Assembly: GCA_030826765.1 (NCBI GenBank)
Contig: JAUUDM010000030.1
Span: forward strand, 1 to 60,273
Source of the DNA: Nautiliales bacterium
GTDB lineage: Bacteria; Campylobacterota; Campylobacteria; Campylobacterales; JAADDX01
Length of the DNA stretch: 60,273 bases
Direction of reading: 5' to 3'
In this document: one piece after another, positions 3 through 51,029 of the stretch
Layout: each line of letters begins with the position of its first letter
Numbering within the stretch: the first letter of the stretch is position 1
The notes under the pieces: generated by a model
Databases searched by the model: none
Told to the model about the DNA's origin: nothing
Seen by the model: the letters and a program-made list of their open reading frames with translations, nothing else
Program-made: the position numbers and the translations under genes

Positions 3-134
3 TCATTAACAAAACTTGTTTATTTAGTTTATAAAGATATTTCAAAAAAATGGCAAAAATCTATATCAAATTGGGCTGAAATTATCTCTCAATTTGCTAT
101 AATATTTGACGAAAGATTAGAGAAATATCTGTAG
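3..134 (+). pseudogene. C-terminal end of an IS256-family (mutator-type) transposase, cut by window edge
   Basis: The only open frame at the left edge encodes 43 residues ending in a stop at 132-134. It contains LTKLVYLVYKDISKKW and, near the end, ISQFAIIFDERL, which are typical of the extreme C-terminus of IS256/mutator-type DDE transposases. The rest lies outside the window, so it is unknown whether the gene is intact. It is followed within 5 nt by a sequence resembling an IS256-type terminal inverted repeat, so this looks like the right end of an element. Identification is from motif memory. Confidence 0.75.
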
Positions 135-136
135 TG

Positions 137-172
137 GGGTTTTTAGGGCTTACACAAATTATGAAGCGGTCT
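137..172 (+). mobile_element. Putative right terminal repeat of the IS256-family element
   Basis: Just after the transposase stop is a G-rich start, then gggcttacacaaattatgaa and a C-rich end near 172. This resembles the TTTACACAAA-type core of IS256-family terminal repeats. Reading on the other strand, an IS5-type coding frame begins at 173-175 with no gap, so the insertion joint is placed at about 172/173. The left end and the target duplication lie outside the window, so this cannot be proved here. Confidence 0.5.
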
Positions 173-403
173 CGATTTTATCAATACACTCTCTACATCT
201 CTCACTATTTTTGAAGCATGTCTTTCACTTATCCCATAGTCTATTCCCATATGAGCTAATGTTCTATATTCCCGATAATACTCAAGCATAAAAAGTACTC
301 TGTCTTCTTCACTTAATTTAGGCTTTCTCCCTCCTATCTTATGCCCTTTTCCCCTCTCTTCTTCTGCTTTTTTATACTCTTTTATATTTTTCCATTCTTT
401 ATT
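173..403 (-). pseudogene. Truncated IS5-type transposase (N-terminal DNA-binding part)
   Basis: On the minus strand 77 codons are open from 403 down to 173. They encode a lysine-rich stretch, then GGRKPKLSEEDRVLFMLEYY and an HTH-like segment containing YGISERHASKIVRDVE. This is the helix-turn-helix region that precedes the DDE domain in IS5-related transposases. A stop lies just upstream (404-406), so the natural N-terminus is missing or frameshifted. The frame ends at the IS256-like end near 172, so the catalytic domain is gone or displaced. It is a dead fragment. Confidence 0.7.
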
Positions 404-448
404 TTACATAATTTTAGTTTTGCAAGAAGCCTATTATAATAAATAGGG

Positions 449-480
449 AAAAAACTAATTTTGATTTTTATTAGTTTTTT
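449..480 (-). terminator. Rho-independent terminator, probably bidirectional
   Basis: A perfect 11-bp inverted repeat pairs 449-459 (aaaaaactaat) with 470-480 (attagtttttt) around a 10-nt loop. The stem reads into A/T runs on both sides. Its right arm overlaps the stop codon (479-481) of the minus-strand barrel gene, so it ends the 479-4681 operon and shields it from the transposon debris. Confidence 0.75.
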
Positions 481-1762
481 ACCATTTACTTATAAGTGCT
501 AAATTAATTTTAGTATATCTTGGTACATCATTTCCATCATAAGTACCTTTTTTTGTGGCAGCTTGTGCAGCTACATCCAATTCAAACCATTTAAGACCTA
601 GTCCTAATCCAGCTGTTAAGATAGTACCTTCTTCATCTTGTACCATATTTCTCATAGCACCTGCTCTTATACTAAACCAACTTTGATGAATATTAAAACC
701 TCCGCCTATATATTGTGATTTATAATCTTTAATAGCAGTATTATTTGTAGTTAAATCAATATCCATTGCAAATTGTAACCAACTTGTAAGTTCTAAATTT
801 ATACCACCTCTTGCCATTGGTTTTATTTTATATTCACTACCATTATAATATTTAAATTTTGGAGAATTTAAATATTTTCCAACAAGTCCTATATTGATTT
901 TATCTGCACTCAATAATAATCCTAAGTCAACACCTAAATTACTAGATGTTTTTTGATTATCATTTAACGAATTATCTAATTCATTACTGTCTGAATCAAT
1001 TTCTATTTTATTTTGATAGGTAATTCCTTGCATATATTTTAATGCCATACCAACACTTAAAGTAGAATTTTTAATATCAAAAGAGTGAGCATAACCAACA
1101 GGTATTTCTGCTATACCTATACCATTAACATTAATATAAGTTAAATTATTATCAAGAGCATATTCTAATGAATATTTATTATATAGATCTTTATCACTTG
1201 CACCATATGTATCTTTTTTGGGATCATAATAATAATATCCACTATCATTTTTTGTATCTTTTACAATTACATATAAATGTTGTCTATCAACTATTGCTTG
1301 AGCTGTTAAATCTCCTAAACCAAAGATTCCTAAACCAAAATTTCCCATTTGTGCACCAAATTCTGCTGTTGGTTGTATAGAAAATCCATTTCCTTGAGAA
1401 AGTGCATACAATTGTTCCAATGAATCTTGCATTTTTTTATCATATCCACCAGCTTTATTTGCACCAGATTTAGGTGCATTATCTGCAATATGATTTATAG
1501 TATTACTTAAATCATCTTTATTAGCTAATTGATCTATTCTATTAATTAAATTATATTCTCTTCCTCCAATACCTACACCTAATGAAAATTCAGCAGTGTA
1601 TCTATGCTTTGCTAAAAGAGCTGGATTGTAATAAAGTGCTGTACTTCCTTTGGCACTTGCTACACCAGCTCCTCCCATTCCTGTTGCCGTAAATCCTAAT
1701 GGTTGAAATTCAAAACCGAAAAGAGTTGATGCGACAAACATAATAATCGTTGATTTTTTCAT
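479..1762 (-). CDS. TraF/FadL-like outer-membrane beta-barrel protein
   Basis: This 427-residue protein has a Sec signal peptide (MKKSTIIMFVASTLFG) followed at about residues 22-47 by TATGMGGAGVASAKGSTALY and YNPA. That glycine-rich hatch motif is the hallmark of the PF13729 'TraF' and OmpP1/FadL/PorV-type barrels. The remainder alternates polar and aromatic strands and ends in ISKW, consistent with an outer-membrane barrel. The family is called conjugal TraF by homology, but no conjugation genes lie nearby. It is the last gene of a three-gene envelope operon, 9 nt after the upstream gene, with AAGGAG (1769-1774) overlapping that gene's stop. A role in handling the operon's lipoprotein or in hydrophobic transport is only inferred. 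Confidence 0.75.
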   Translation of the reverse strand: MKKSTIIMFVASTLFGFEFQPLGFTATGMGGAGVASAKGSTALYYNPALLAKHRYTAEFSLGVGIGGREYNLINRIDQLANKDDLSNTINHIADNAPKSGANKAGGYDKKMQDSLEQLYALSQGNGFSIQPTAEFGAQMGNFGLGIFGLGDLTAQAIVDRQHLYVIVKDTKNDSGYYYYDPKKDTYGASDKDLYNKYSLEYALDNNLTYINVNGIGIAEIPVGYAHSFDIKNSTLSVGMALKYMQGITYQNKIEIDSDSNELDNSLNDNQKTSSNLGVDLGLLLSADKINIGLVGKYLNSPKFKYYNGSEYKIKPMARGGINLELTSWLQFAMDIDLTTNNTAIKDYKSQYIGGGFNIHQSWFSIRAGAMRNMVQDEEGTILTAGLGLGLKWFELDVAAQAATKKGTYDGNDVPRYTKINLALISKW

Positions 1763-1771
1763 TTTTTCTCC

Positions 1772-2638
1772 TTAATCAAACTTCCAAGTTACTTGCAATC
1801 CCCCATTTAAACTTTGAGTTATATTTGTTGGCCAAACAATTGTTTTACCATCAGAATGTTTAGTTTGCCCATCTCTATACATATATGAATAATTTGTAAA
1901 TAATCCTAATTCTATACCTTTCATTATAGGATAACTTACAGTAAGACCAGTATCAAAATCATATCCATCGGTATTATCAAAAGTTAAAGATGGAGCAGCT
2001 GTATTTGTTACATTTTCATAAATAGGTAATCCACCTTCTATATTGAATTTTATTCTAAGACCATCAAGTGCTGCTGTATTACTTTCAAACCAATATCCTA
2101 CATTTAAAACTAATGATGAAGCAGTTTCTTCTACTAAATATTGTGAGCCACTATCATCTGGATCATTATATCTTTTGAATGTATTTAAAAAATAATTAAA
2201 ACCAAAAGTAATTCTATGGAGATTAGTTAATTTATATTGCATTAAAAATTTCATAGAGTTACTCATAATAGTTGCATTATTTGAAACAATTGTAGAATCA
2301 TCTCCTCTATCTAACCATTTTTCTGTTGTTTTATTTGGTTTTAGAGTAGATGTAAAATCCATTGATAAATCCCATTTCTTATTAATTTTAATCAATCCAC
2401 CACTTAAATAAATAGGATTTGTTACATTTAGTCTTGATTTAACTGCTACATTTGAATTTGCTGGATATGTTTTTCCATTTTTACCAACATATACACTTTT
2501 AAATGTATAAATAAATTTTTCATTATATTCAAAATGTTGAACTCCTATTGCAAAATAACTGTATCCATCAAAGTTTCTATCATTAGCAGCAAAAAGACTT
2601 ACAGCTACTAAACTTGAAATAAGTAATATTTTTTTCAT
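1772..2638 (-). CDS. Predicted outer-membrane beta-barrel protein, function unknown
   Basis: The 288 residues start with a clear signal peptide (MKKILLISSLVAVSLFA, cleavage likely before AND). The mature part has alternating beta-type segments rich in Tyr, Phe, Asn and Gly and ends in a strand closing with WKFD, as expected of an outer-membrane barrel. I do not recognise a named family. It is the middle gene of the operon, 12 nt after the lipoprotein gene and 9 nt before the TraF-like barrel. AAGGAG lies before the ATG. Pairing with a large lipoprotein suggests a surface assembly, but that is inference. Confidence 0.6.
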   Translation of the reverse strand: MKKILLISSLVAVSLFAANDRNFDGYSYFAIGVQHFEYNEKFIYTFKSVYVGKNGKTYPANSNVAVKSRLNVTNPIYLSGGLIKINKKWDLSMDFTSTLKPNKTTEKWLDRGDDSTIVSNNATIMSNSMKFLMQYKLTNLHRITFGFNYFLNTFKRYNDPDDSGSQYLVEETASSLVLNVGYWFESNTAALDGLRIKFNIEGGLPIYENVTNTAAPSLTFDNTDGYDFDTGLTVSYPIMKGIELGLFTNYSYMYRDGQTKHSDGKTIVWPTNITQSLNGGLQVTWKFD

Positions 2639-2650
2639 TTTGTCTCCTTT

Positions 2651-4681
2651 TTAGTTTTTATCATTATCAAAATAACTATCTACATTATCTATGAAATCTT
2701 TAATCCATCTATTTAAAGCATAATTAATATCACTTTTTTTATCATATGGTTTAACTTCATTTTTTAACTCATTAAATGTATTATTATCTTCTTTAGGTAA
2801 TCTTCTAAGTGCATCCACTACATCATAACTATTAACTAAAATCATAGGTTCTGTTGTAACTTTTCCTGATATGGAATCAGTTTCACTTTTTATAACACCA
2901 TAATAATCATAATTTTTGTTTAATTGATTTACATGATAACTTGAATTAAAGTCTAAGCTATAATTAATAATAGTATGGTTATCTTTATTTACTTCATAAG
3001 CACCTGAACTAAAATTAGAATTATTTTCTATAATTTTTGATTTATCACAATTCCAGTCATCTGTTGAATTATTTTCTAAATAACAAGTCTTAGTTTTATA
3101 ATGAGATGGATAAACAATAATTTTAGTATATTCTCTTACAAAGTTTTCATCTGTTTTTGGTTTATTTTCTTTATAATATGCAAGAAGTCTATAGAATACA
3201 TATCCTGAATTTTTAGCCATTTCTTGAAATTTATCTTTTTGTTCTTGATCAGAATTTTCTACTTTTTTGTTAGATATATCATTTAATTGATGAGAAAGAA
3301 TTGTATCATTAGTAATATTATCTTCTAAACTAGTAGAATTATAATCTACTACGGATGTATTTATATCTAAGTTTGCATTATCAACATTTGAAATACTATT
3401 TTTTACTAATTCATATGTATCATTTGCATTATTATCATTAATAGAAGCATTTTCATCAATAACACTTTTTATAACAGCTGCTGCTTTTACTACTTTATCT
3501 TGATAATAAACTCTAAGTTCGCTTAAATTATTTTCATAAGATTTAGAATTTAATGCACCTTTTTCGTCTAAAATAGCATCTTGTGCAGTAGTAATATTTG
3601 AAATAATTAAATTTTTCTCTTTAGTTGGTGAAATTAATTTACTTTGTTGAATAAGAGATTTTAATTTTTTTGTAGTAATAGTTGAAGTTAATTTAATAGA
3701 ACTATTATTATCTTTTACAGCTGTTAATTGTAAAAGATTATCTTCATTCATAATTGTGTAATATAAACTGCCTTTTGTTTTATTTTCATCTATTGTTAAA
3801 CTCCAAGCACCATTTTTATCACTTGTTGCTTTAATATTATCAAATGTTTTATTTGTATCATCTAAATCTTTTATTGAAATATTTGCTTCAAAACTTTTGT
3901 CAAAAACTAATCCGTATAACTTAACTTTGTTTGAATTTTGTAAACTTGATAAACTTTTTAATGGATCATCATTATTTATATCAGGATCATCCATAATTAC
4001 TAATCCAAAAAGTTGAGGTTTATTCATAGATTTCTTTTTAACATCTTTAAGAACATTTTTAACATTTAAACTTCCATTACTATCTATTTTATTTATAACT
4101 TCATTTTTGACTACTTCTAAAAATTTCATTTTATTGGTAATAGCACCTCCTGAATTAGATGCAATTATAATAGAATTTACTTTTGGTAATAGATTTTTTA
4201 CTTTTTTATTTGTTGCATCAAACAAATCTTCTTTGCTTACACCTAATTTATCTGCTAAGTTATTAATGTCCTCATCGCTTGCATTAGCTAAAATAGTAGT
4301 TAAAGGAGTTACAATAAAATCATCATCTTTCCCTGTTTTTGATACATTAAGTAACAAAGGAGAAGTTTGTGTTACATTTTTATCTTTGATTTCCCCATCT
4401 TTAATTTCTATATACAATGGTTTTGCAACACATTTTTTTAGTAAATATTCTCCATCTCCTATTTCTTCAGATGTTTCACAATTTGTAGCTGTTACTGTTG
4501 CGTGAATGATAGGGTCATCAACAGCTTTAACTATATAATTTTTATATGTAACATTTTGTGAATATCCAAAAATAGATGATGTATCATAGCTGTAATCTTG
4601 GTCACTAACACTACTATTATCTCCACATCCTATGATTAATGAAGCAGATATTGTAGATAATAAATATAAATATTTTTTCAT
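2651..4681 (-). CDS. Large predicted surface lipoprotein, function unknown
   Basis: The 676-residue product begins with a lipoprotein signal peptide and lipobox SLIIGC, with Cys19 as the lipidation site; a GDNSS tail follows. The mature protein is Asn/Asp/Ser/Lys-rich and soluble-looking. About residues 50-110 include paired cysteines (CETSEEI...LLKKC), and a later section carries another Cys pair near 535-545. No catalytic motif is recognised. It is first in the operon, with a strong AGGGAGG ribosome site and a promoter about 80 nt upstream. Length and composition suggest a cell-surface or periplasmic scaffold or adhesin. It could also be substrate of, or partner to, the two downstream barrels. 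Confidence 0.6.
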   Translation of the reverse strand: MKKYLYLLSTISASLIIGCGDNSSVSDQDYSYDTSSIFGYSQNVTYKNYIVKAVDDPIIHATVTATNCETSEEIGDGEYLLKKCVAKPLYIEIKDGEIKDKNVTQTSPLLLNVSKTGKDDDFIVTPLTTILANASDEDINNLADKLGVSKEDLFDATNKKVKNLLPKVNSIIIASNSGGAITNKMKFLEVVKNEVINKIDSNGSLNVKNVLKDVKKKSMNKPQLFGLVIMDDPDINNDDPLKSLSSLQNSNKVKLYGLVFDKSFEANISIKDLDDTNKTFDNIKATSDKNGAWSLTIDENKTKGSLYYTIMNEDNLLQLTAVKDNNSSIKLTSTITTKKLKSLIQQSKLISPTKEKNLIISNITTAQDAILDEKGALNSKSYENNLSELRVYYQDKVVKAAAVIKSVIDENASINDNNANDTYELVKNSISNVDNANLDINTSVVDYNSTSLEDNITNDTILSHQLNDISNKKVENSDQEQKDKFQEMAKNSGYVFYRLLAYYKENKPKTDENFVREYTKIIVYPSHYKTKTCYLENNSTDDWNCDKSKIIENNSNFSSGAYEVNKDNHTIINYSLDFNSSYHVNQLNKNYDYYGVIKSETDSISGKVTTEPMILVNSYDVVDALRRLPKEDNNTFNELKNEVKPYDKKSDINYALNRWIKDFIDNVDSYFDNDKN

Positions 4682-4770: not shown

Positions 4771-4799
4771 ATTATATTACTAAATAATAGAAAAGTCAA
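4771..4799 (-). promoter_or_regulatory. Sigma-70 promoter of the envelope operon
   Basis: On the minus strand TTGACT (4799-4794), a 17-nt spacer and a perfect TATAAT (4776-4771) form a near-consensus promoter. This is unusual in Campylobacterota, where -35 boxes are usually weak. Transcription should start near 4764, giving a leader of about 80 nt. The -35 box and spacer lie inside the first copy of a 20-bp tandem repeat. Confidence 0.8.
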
Positions 4800-4835
4800 C
4801 TAAATAATAGAAAAGTCAACTAAATAATAGGAAAA
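4781..4835. repeat. Tandem 20-bp repeat, two perfect copies and one degenerate
   Basis: taaataatagaaaagtcaac occurs at 4781-4800 and 4801-4820. A third copy starts at 4821 and diverges after taaataatag. There are no spacers, so this is not a CRISPR. Seen from the minus strand each full copy brings a TTGACT box, but only the copy nearest the gene is correctly spaced from TATAAT. The other copies may be operator sites or products of slippage. Confidence 0.9.
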
Positions 4836-48222: not shown

Positions 48223-48942
48223 ATGATTACAATTATTGGTAATGGAAAAATGGCCTTGGCTATTGCGAAAGGTTTAAATGGTGAAGTTGAGGTAGTTGGA
48301 AGAAATGAAAATAAATTAAAAGAGTTTTGTGAGAAAAGTGGTGCTAAAAAATATTATTTATTAAATGACTTTGATATAACCAATAAAACAATAATTTTAG
48401 CTACTAAACCTTATGCTTTGGAACTACTTTCTTTAAAAGGAAAAGCAAAAGAGATTATTTCAATAATGGCTGGTAAAAAAATAGAAGAGATAGGAAAGTA
48501 TATTGAATCTGAAATTTATTCAAGAGCTATGCCAAATGTCGGTGCTGTAAATCAAGCTTCAACTACTGCTATTTTTGGAAGTGACACAGCTTATGATATT
48601 TTTTCTAAAATAGGGACTGCTATTAAAGTAAATAGTGAAAAAGAACTTGATATAGCAACTGCGATTGCTGGAAGTGGTCCTGCATTTTTAGCACTTGTAG
48701 CAGAAGCTATAGCAGATGGTGGAGTTTTATGTGGAATGAGTCGAGAGATGAGTTATGAATTTACAAAAGGACTTTTTAAAAGTTTTGCCTCACTTGATGA
48801 AAAACCGGTAAATATAAAAGATTCTGTAATGAGTCCAGCTGGAACTACAGCGACTGGAATAGAAAAATTAGAAGAAAATGGAGTAAGAAATTCTTTTATA
48901 AAAGCGATTAAGGGCGCTTATGAAAAATCTCAAAAAATCTAG
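48223..48942 (+). CDS. proC: Pyrroline-5-carboxylate reductase
   Basis: The 239-residue enzyme makes proline. It begins MITIIGNGKMALAIAKGL (NADP loop), has YSRAMPNVGAVNQASTTAIF and the catalytic region IAGSGPAFLALVAEAIADGGV, then MSPAGTTATGIEKLEENGVR. It is shorter than E. coli ProC (269), but motifs are complete. It overlaps the first pilin-like gene by 23 nt. Confidence 0.95.
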   Translation: MITIIGNGKMALAIAKGLNGEVEVVGRNENKLKEFCEKSGAKKYYLLNDFDITNKTIILATKPYALELLSLKGKAKEIISIMAGKKIEEIGKYIESEIYSRAMPNVGAVNQASTTAIFGSDTAYDIFSKIGTAIKVNSEKELDIATAIAGSGPAFLALVAEAIADGGVLCGMSREMSYEFTKGLFKSFASLDEKPVNIKDSVMSPAGTTATGIEKLEENGVRNSFIKAIKGAYEKSQKI

Positions 48943-49588
48943 TTTTACTTTAATAGAATTAGTAGTAGCAATAGTCGTAATAGGAATTGCTGTAACTTCA
49001 ATTCCTATGCTCTTATCTACTACATCTCAAAGTTTTTCTACACATTTGAAATCAAAATCTTTTTATAATGCTTATTCTACTTTAGCTTTGATAGAATCAA
49101 TGGATTGGGATGAACAAAATACAAAAAATGATAATTTTTATAAAATTTTGAGATCACAAGGAGATAATGAGTTATATTGCAAAATTCATTATCAAAAATT
49201 TTATATTAAATATGAAAGAGAAGGAGTTTATCAGCTTGATAATGAAAGTGGTGCTGATTGTTCTTATGATCAGGCTTCTAAAATTGGAACTGATGAAGGT
49301 GAAAATGATAGTTCTCAATATGATGATGTAGATGACTTTGATGGATATGAAAATGATGATTTAGCATATTATAATATTAAAGTTGGTGTTAAATATGTTC
49401 AAGATAACGCTGATTATACTGCAAAAAATATTTTCTATAATGATAATTTAGATAGTTCAAACAAGAGAACAAATATAAAATATATAGAAATAAATATGAC
49501 TGATAAAACAGGAAAATTAGTTTCAGTAATTAGAGGTAAAGCTTATAATATTGGAGCTGTTAAAATTTATAGTAGGAATGATTTATGA
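48920..49588 (+). CDS. Prepilin-like protein 1
   Basis: The 222-residue protein has a short basic leader then the type IV prepilin cleavage and methylation pattern SSFTLIELVVAIVVIGIAVT, with E5 relative to the Phe. The mature part is acidic and Asp-rich (residues 110-150). In Campylobacterota such proteins are called type II secretion or pilin-like. It overlaps proC by 23 nt and the next pilin-like gene by 4 nt. The role (pseudopilus, surface appendage, DNA uptake) is undecided. Confidence 0.8.
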   Translation: MKNLKKSSFTLIELVVAIVVIGIAVTSIPMLLSTTSQSFSTHLKSKSFYNAYSTLALIESMDWDEQNTKNDNFYKILRSQGDNELYCKIHYQKFYIKYEREGVYQLDNESGADCSYDQASKIGTDEGENDSSQYDDVDDFDGYENDDLAYYNIKVGVKYVQDNADYTAKNIFYNDNLDSSNKRTNIKYIEINMTDKTGKLVSVIRGKAYNIGAVKIYSRNDL

Positions 49589-50625
49589 AATTTAAAAAAA
49601 GTTTTACTTTGATAGAATTAATTGTTGTTATTGTAATTATGGGTATTTTAGCAACTATTACTTTTAATATTTTATCAAAGGTTTATAAACATTATATATA
49701 TACTAAAGAGATAAATAAATTAGATAATAAATTAGACTTAGCACTTGATGAAATAGCAACACTTCTTAGAAATAGACTTAAAAATACTATAATTGCTACT
49801 AAATATCCAGTTAAAACAGATCAGAAAGATGCAAATAGTGTAGATTTTAAGCCTATATCAGAATTAACTGAAAGTGATGAAGGTTATATAGTATTAGAGT
49901 GGATTGGTAAAGATTATGAAGCGCGATATGGAATGTGGGATGAAAATCAAAAAGATATTCAAACAGGTTGGAGTGGATTTATTGATTTAGATGAAGCTAC
50001 AAAAACAAATGATGATCCAAAAGAATTTAATGTAACTACACTTAATAGTAATTTTAATATAGTAAAATCAATTGATAGAAATATTACAGCTGCTTTAGGT
50101 GAAGATATTGACCCTTTTGAAAATAACATTACTACACTCATATTTTCCGGATATGATATGGGAGGAGATTTGAATCCTGATGTAAATCAAAGTTTTGGTT
50201 GGTATTTTGATAAGGATAAAAAAAGAACTGCAAAATCTGTTTTTGCAATTCAGAATTATACTCAAAATAATAATGCTGTTGATTTAAATATTACATCTAT
50301 TACAGAGAATAATGATACTACATTATTTGCAAGATATTTTTTAGTAAGAACTGCTTATACAATAGTTCCGATAAGTGATAAAGATGATTATAATTTAACA
50401 CTTTATTATAATTATCAGCCATGGAGAAAAGACTGGTGGAATAAACTTCACGGAAGTGGTAATGAAGCAAATAATACTTTAATATTGAATCATGTAACTC
50501 AATTTAGATTTAAAAAAGATGAAAACTCTAATATGGTTAGAATTTATCTTTGTGTAAGATCTACATTTGTAGATATGAACTCAACTAATAAATTAGAAAT
50601 TTGTAAAGAAAAGGTTGTTTTTTGA
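49585..50625 (+). CDS. Prepilin-like protein 2
   Basis: The 346-residue protein has the prepilin N-terminus KKSFTLIELIVVIVIMGILATI with F and E5. The mature domain of about 320 residues is much larger than a major pilin (150-200), suggesting a minor or priming pseudopilin (GspJ/PilW-like position). It contains many Asn/Asp residues and WRKDWWNKLHG near the end. ATG overlaps the previous stop. No peptidase PilD or ATPase is within the window. Confidence 0.75.
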   Translation: MKFKKSFTLIELIVVIVIMGILATITFNILSKVYKHYIYTKEINKLDNKLDLALDEIATLLRNRLKNTIIATKYPVKTDQKDANSVDFKPISELTESDEGYIVLEWIGKDYEARYGMWDENQKDIQTGWSGFIDLDEATKTNDDPKEFNVTTLNSNFNIVKSIDRNITAALGEDIDPFENNITTLIFSGYDMGGDLNPDVNQSFGWYFDKDKKRTAKSVFAIQNYTQNNNAVDLNITSITENNDTTLFARYFLVRTAYTIVPISDKDDYNLTLYYNYQPWRKDWWNKLHGSGNEANNTLILNHVTQFRFKKDENSNMVRIYLCVRSTFVDMNSTNKLEICKEKVVF

Positions 50626-51029
50626 AAAAATCATTTGCAATGATATTGACTATTATTTTTATTGTTGTTTTAGGAACTGTTGGAATGTTTATGATGTATT
50701 TTTCAGCAGCAAGTGTAAAAAAAACAAGTAATGAATATTTGGCTGTTCAAGCACAAATGAAAGCAAAAGATGCTACAGCATACGCGATTATGGCTCTTGA
50801 AGCAAGAGATTTTGCAAAATATGGATGTATAAATAAAATGGATATAAATTCTACTTTGTATGATGTAAATATGACTTTTTACTATTTTTTAAAACAATGC
50901 CCAAGTGATTGTAATTGTTCTACTATTACTACACAAGATTCAAATGGAACCGTTATAATAAATACTTATGTAACAAGTAAATTTGATCCAAATATCCGTT
51001 TTTTTAGACAAACTATTCAAAAACCTTAA
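50622..51029 (+). CDS. PilX/GspK-like small exported protein
   Basis: The 135-residue protein has a TTG start overlapping the previous stop. It begins MKKSFAMILTIIFIVVLGTVGMFMMYF, a hydrophobic N-terminal helix without the Phe-Thr-Leu-Ile-Glu prepilin motif. The later segment has KSNEYLA-like sequence and four cysteines (CPSDCNC, GCINK) likely to form disulfides. Its position after two prepilins suggests the PilX/GspK role of an atypical minor pilin. This is an inference from context. Confidence 0.55.
   Translation: MKKSFAMILTIIFIVVLGTVGMFMMYFSAASVKKTSNEYLAVQAQMKAKDATAYAIMALEARDFAKYGCINKMDINSTLYDVNMTFYYFLKQCPSDCNCSTITTQDSNGTVIINTYVTSKFDPNIRFFRQTIQKP

Follow-up and report, generated by a model that had tools for sequence, protein, structure and literature searches.

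Pullulanase (PulA) is a surface lipoprotein that is exported by a type II secretion system (T2SS; PMC7857515), and Nautilia sp. PV-1 has been reported to encode such a system (PMC10092268). In Campylobacter jejuni, N-glycosylation by PglB follows a rule that requires an acidic residue at position -2 (PMC4894442). Lipoprotein genes are also found together with outer-membrane (OM) barrel genes in the Slam and SusC/SusD systems, and channels such as CymD and TbuX represent the FadL superfamily of barrels.

The three-gene operon described here joins these known kinds, namely lipoprotein-barrel pairs and PglB glycoproteins, and its value lies in the density of its glycosylation sequons and in its link to T2SS. 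Its lipoprotein shares with C. jejuni-type N-glycoproteins an enrichment in D/E-x-N-x-S/T sequons and the presence of pglB in the genome, but its 14–16 candidate sites per protein are unusually dense. As with PulA, the lipoprotein is large, and relatives of its modules occur in T2SS loci of two genomes (G000 and G029); unlike for PulA, however, the operon lies outside a T2SS locus and no enzyme domain was recognised in the lipoprotein. The adjacent lipoprotein and OM barrel genes recall Slam and Slam-dependent lipoproteins, but the operon is devoid of a TPR/DUF560 protein and its barrel is much smaller. One of its barrels matches the TraF_2 profile (E 3e-30) and resembles FadL-superfamily channels in its hatch region, but its gene shares the operon with those of a lipoprotein and of another barrel. 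Finally, a lipoprotein co-encoded with barrels is also found in SusC/SusD; a Sus-like system was rejected, as Pfam gave no TonB-dependent receptor or SusD-family match.

Organization of the operon

The window, i.e., the whole stretch of DNA that was analysed, is the complete 60,273-nt contig C6 of a Nautiliaceae-like genome (G000; 1.51 Mb in 47 contigs), base 1 being a contig end. Three consecutive open reading frames (ORFs), running from 4681 to 479 on the minus strand, encode the lipoprotein, a small barrel and the TraF_2 barrel, with intergenic gaps of 12 nt (lipoprotein/small barrel) and 9 nt (small barrel/TraF_2). The features of this region are as follows:

3..134, plus strand: open-frame tail that enters at the contig boundary (resembles a transposase by eye only, without a Pfam match)
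146..403, minus strand: transposase remnant, HTH_Tnp_4 (E 8e-13)
about 446..481, minus strand: A/T-rich terminator-like hairpin and U-run over the TraF_2 stop codon (-10.4 kcal/mol, z -2.87)
479..1762, minus strand: predicted FadL-superfamily barrel TraF_2 (PF13729), 427 aa (Pfam match E 3.2e-30)
1772..2638, minus strand: small predicted beta-barrel partner, 288 aa (ORF, orthologues, beta-segment statistics)
2651..4681, minus strand: predicted OM lipoprotein, 676 aa (ORF, orthologue alignment, 14 sequons)
4625..4681, minus strand: predicted lipoprotein signal peptide through the lipobox Cys (SLIIG/C19, +2 Gly; from sequence)
4771..4799, minus strand: promoter-like site TTGACT-17-TATAAT (11 of 12 consensus match only)
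4779..4834, no strand: 2.8 tandem copies of a 20-nt unit (ACTAAATAATAGAAAAGTCA) that overlap the -35 region

The coordinates agree with a preliminary description of this DNA, which had proposed a three-gene operon with spacings of 9 and 12 nt, and the identical gene order recurs in a Nautiliaceae MAG (JALVAK010000001.1; 57, 68 and 78% identity) and in genome G005 (42, 58 and 62% identity), which shows that the grouping is not a chance one. That description had also placed one promoter and one terminator around the genes. The hairpin and the TTGACT-17-TATAAT site, which is the best promoter-like site 5' of the operon, are in keeping with this, but promoter-like sites as a class showed no excess (35 found against 40.7 expected in shuffles). 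The A/T-rich hairpin at 446-481 is not picked up by a G+C-based terminator scan. The 20-nt repeat at the putative -35 could provide sites for an operator, or could switch the promoter through a variable number of copies. Transposon debris covers positions 1-403, reaching the contig end, and the HTH_Tnp_4 match confirms the earlier observation of such debris nearby.

A lipoprotein dense in candidate N-glycosylation sites

The lipobox (...SLIIGC) that had been recognised in the 676-residue protein has its Cys19 and the Gly (GC) kept in 4/4 orthologues, although the word "giant" used for it was an overstatement. An N-terminal TTR/Ig-like module with a "VTPLTT" segment and helices occupies about residues 45–235 and is followed by a second, carboxypeptidase-regulatory-like Ig module (about residues 253–340), which resembles CarboxypepD_reg below cut-off (E 0.0055 for the G054 orthologue). 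The C-terminal half (about 350–676) is family-specific and was seen only within its own family. Neither Pfam nor NCBIfam gave a family match for the lipoprotein, a PDB sequence search was without matches, and AlphaFold models from two-sequence alignments were uninformative (pLDDT 32.9, and 31.8 for the small barrel). Lipoproteins of genome G391 share the N-terminal stalk, some 360 residues long, of the operon lipoprotein (E 1e-28 to 1e-32 among the ORFs searched) but differ from it in their C-terminal halves. In G391, the stalk is fused to unrelated C-terminal halves that by eye are glycosidase-like and beta-helix-like (L015:7400-10346 and L016:7431-9674), and at L015 it adjoins polysaccharide export genes (ORFs read by eye). 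These fusions look like a swappable surface-lipoprotein stalk.

The chief clue beyond the preliminary description is the sequon enrichment of this lipoprotein, together with a genomic PglB and related lipoprotein/barrel sets in T2SS loci. The lipoprotein holds 14 D/E-x-N-x-S/T sequons (acidic residue at 100, 200, 265, 275, 298, 324, 383, 409, 439, 446, 453, 536, 577 and 631), compared with 1.8 expected from composition and at most 7 in any of 1000 block shuffles. The reversed motif is absent (0 occurrences), and of nine other control motifs most were as frequent as expected. D/E-N-x-S/T, a spacing variant that overlaps with the sequon, was also raised (9 against 1.9); Asn-rich sites that fit both motifs probably account for part of this. 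Orthologues carry 16, 14 and 7 sequons, one site being common to all four proteins. Among 1272 ORFs, which represent about 90% of the G000 genome, the operon lipoprotein ranks first for sequon enrichment. Sorted by a crude compartment classifier, which placed the operon lipoprotein itself in the cytosolic class, these ORFs showed 33 sequons against 9.2 expected in lipoproteins and 103 against 64 in signal-peptide proteins, with no enrichment in those classed as cytosolic (214 against 238). In the same genome, L130:3961-6096 codes for a complete PglB that has both the STT3 core and the C domain. Considering the sequon excess, the presence of PglB and the acidic -2 rule, we predict that the lipoprotein is very likely a PglB substrate.

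Two further observations concern sequon-rich genes of this genome. At 48920-51029 of the window, three pilin-like genes adjoin an hpf-like gene; the second has 9 sequons (0.6 expected) and ranks 2 among the ORFs scanned, and the third has 4 (0.1 expected) and ranks 7. Contig C13 encodes a protein of 268 aa (L149:18258-19064) in which no signal peptide is obvious and 7 sequons occur against 0.4 expected; it may be a membrane protein of the RodZ type, with one domain in the periplasm.

Two predicted barrels

Amphipathic beta segments exceed shuffles in both downstream proteins (z 3.2 and 2.5) and do not do so in housekeeping controls, in line with the two OM barrels previously proposed. The small barrel has no Pfam or NCBIfam family match, gave a chance match only in a PDB sequence search, and was encountered among 397 genomes solely beside an operon-type lipoprotein. 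Two of the three proteins of the operon are thus without a Pfam or NCBIfam model, in agreement with the earlier label of a candidate undescribed system.

The third protein matches PF13729 with 105.7 bits, far above the gathering cut-off of 25, and carries the N-terminal glycine hatch motif (GMGGAGVASAKGS) that the preliminary description had linked to TraF and FadL. Its only PDB profile matches are to FadL channels, namely CymD (6z34; E 0.0097, TraF_2 residues 17-75) and TbuX (E 0.63), over the hatch region. Members of the FadL superfamily combine an N-terminal hatch with a barrel of about 14 strands, and the CymD match bears on the first of these features. Judged by these profiles, it is a predicted FadL-type barrel, and the label "TraF" is misleading, as had been suspected. 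The window's listed ORFs of at least 100 aa, read by eye, are chromosomal housekeeping and envelope genes with no conjugation genes apparent among them, and solo TraF_2 copies elsewhere sit among housekeeping genes. An F-type conjugation TraF was rejected because no transfer genes were apparent around the operon or the solo copies. NCBIfam gave weak matches to PorP (E 2.2e-8) and PorV (E 1.1e-7); an assignment to T9SS PorV/PorP was likewise rejected, the scores being 31.8 and 33.9 bits against cut-offs of 90 and 90.55, with the best PorV stretch comprising the hatch motif only. The operon TraF_2 proteins form a single clade (support 100/99) that nests in a supported group including solo copies of G000, G054, G146 and G200. 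None of the papers searched mentions PF13729 or brings TraF, FadL and Campylobacterota together.

Distribution and mobility

A survey of 397 genomes of the class found the full-length lipoprotein in 3 of them (G000, G005 and G054) and the small barrel in precisely these 3, the two genes being adjacent in each case. In G054 (27% identity for the lipoprotein, 40% for the small barrel; gap 6 nt), the pair adjoins capsule-export-like genes, and the TraF_2 gene is located elsewhere, adjoining groEL and unlinked to the pair. TraF_2 relatives are present in 84 of the 397 genomes, nearly all without lipoprotein or small barrel, and G000 itself has a second, solo copy. Based on this distribution, the unlinking in G054 and the TraF_2 tree, we conclude that the lipoprotein and small barrel are the core pair and that TraF_2 was recruited in the Nautiliaceae-type lineage, from what looks like a wider chromosomal family. 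It is highly likely that the lipoprotein and small barrel form a functional pair. The preliminary description had suggested that all three act together, and the co-occurrence survey supports this in part: the lipoprotein and small barrel are never separated, but TraF_2 homologues occur independently in many genomes. In other words, its observation was right and its interpretation half right.

In G005, the block is inserted between pepA and ychF, 50 and 40 nt away, whereas in six genomes (G000, G007, G054, G014, G003 and G008) pepA and ychF are direct neighbours with no block between them, which identifies it as an accessory cassette. Since the operon is also absent from relatives (G001, of the family of G000, and G007, of the family of G005), it moves or is lost as a unit. 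The accessory status put forward earlier is thus established by the empty pepA-ychF sites and the patchy distribution rather than by debris alone. Foreign base composition was rejected (operon G+C 0.24-0.29 against 0.26 for the window).

Related proteins in type II secretion loci

A T2SS cluster on contig C31 of G000 (gspD, gspE and pseudopilins) is followed by genes for a small barrel of 266 aa, a lipoprotein of 952 aa that carries 14 sequons, and a barrel-like protein of 380 aa. In G029, two T2SS gene blocks enclose the genes for lipoproteins of 1229 and 1109 aa, with 25 and 35 sequons, respectively, and for a protein homologous to the 380-aa one (E 1.7e-44). The coordinates of these sequon-packed lipoprotein/barrel T2SS loci are:

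G000, contig C31: L124:5949-15114
G029: L191:13128-16817 and L192:257-4652

The N-terminal modules of the operon and T2SS-locus lipoproteins gave a profile-profile match of 96% (E 3.7e-9), with few sequences in the profiles. The 266-aa barrel is related to barrels adjoining TraF_2 in G028 and G369 (E 1e-16 and 3e-12), and in G200 TraF_2 adjoins T2SS genes. The GspD N0 domain was found in 5/5 genomes with the stalk lipoprotein as opposed to 24/75 others (Fisher P 0.005, uncorrected for phylogeny), and in 11/12 genomes with a close TraF_2 (P 3e-5, likewise uncorrected); G001 and G007, the relatives that have no operon, also lack GspD. This correlation is confounded by phylogeny and drawn from few genomes.

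An unnamed small-barrel family with a C-terminal EPDS motif (L057:8334-9113, L058:6155-6970 and L124:10001-10801) adjoins TraF_2 in two genomes and T2SS genes in G000. Homology of the operon small barrel to the C31/G028/G369 barrel family was unsupported (hhalign probability 2.6%), and none of the T2SS-locus barrels shows detectable homology to it. The C31 and G029 loci are possibly a more striking system than the operon.

Proposed function and alternatives

Our best reading, to which we give about an even chance, is an OM lipoprotein, glycosylated by PglB and most likely displayed at the surface, that works with a barrel dedicated to it and with a FadL-type channel recruited as a further partner. 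The lipoprotein would enter the periplasm by Sec and be lipidated, after which PglB of the same cell would N-glycosylate it at many D/E-x-N-x-S/T sites; it would then be delivered to the outer membrane and displayed on the cell surface. As a lipid-anchored Ig-like stalk with a family-specific C-terminal domain, it would act with its obligate small barrel and the FadL-type TraF_2 channel, capturing or presenting a ligand for the barrels, most plausibly for ligand capture and uptake. We consider surface exposure of the lipoprotein reasonably probable. T2SS, as for pullulanase, would be the most plausible route of delivery, a suggestion that we make with some reserve, and a function in ligand uptake is proposed more tentatively still. 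A complex of all three proteins may form, against which the unlinked TraF_2 of G054 counts. These degrees of confidence, including those given above for glycosylation and for the pair, are judgements and were not computed.

That the lipoprotein and the small barrel always occur together and side by side, as in Slam-SLP pairs (PMC5449769), would also fit a display pair in which the small barrel exports its own lipoprotein, with or without TraF_2 as a PorV-like shuttle, the latter suggested by the weak PorP and PorV matches. We consider this unlikely, given that Pfam finds no DUF560 or TPR domain in either barrel, that a barrel of 288 aa is an improbable conduit for a folded 676-aa protein with many glycans, and that the PorV/PorP scores are far under cut-off, the PorV match being confined to the hatch motif. 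The lipoprotein might instead face the periplasm, plugging or stabilising two OM channels for the uptake of hydrophobic compounds in a FadL-like manner, with glycans that are stabilising or incidental. TraF_2 is of the predicted FadL type, the Gly at +2 is consistent with outer-membrane sorting as the Lol default, and in C. jejuni many N-glycoproteins are periplasmic proteins or lipoproteins; however, lipoproteins with related modules sit inside T2SS loci, and the G391 stalks with swapped C-terminal halves adjoin exopolysaccharide export genes, which looks like surface display, so that we give this arrangement little credence. That three separately useful envelope genes are chance neighbours without a joint function is very unlikely: TraF_2 does occur alone in many genomes and elsewhere in G000, but the three-gene block is kept in three genomes at unrelated sites, entered the pepA-ychF site whole, and contains a pair that is never separated.

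Nautiliaceae and their relatives might make large surface lipoproteins as a class, each densely N-glycosylated by PglB in the periplasm, then exported by T2SS, and provided with an OM barrel of its own, the operon being a mobile member that gained a FadL-type channel; we regard this generalisation as doubtful. Two protein families without a name in the databases gain a concrete, testable partnership, and the misleading annotation "conjugal transfer TraF" is corrected for a predicted FadL-type barrel. The operon points to an undescribed cell-surface glycoprotein module in a vent-type relative of Campylobacter. To our knowledge, little is known about the natural targets and the purpose of N-glycosylation outside Campylobacter. 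With 14–16 candidate sites in one protein and a compartment-specific enrichment over about 90% of the proteome, cultivable vent Campylobacterota would therefore offer a direct test of the purpose of PglB.
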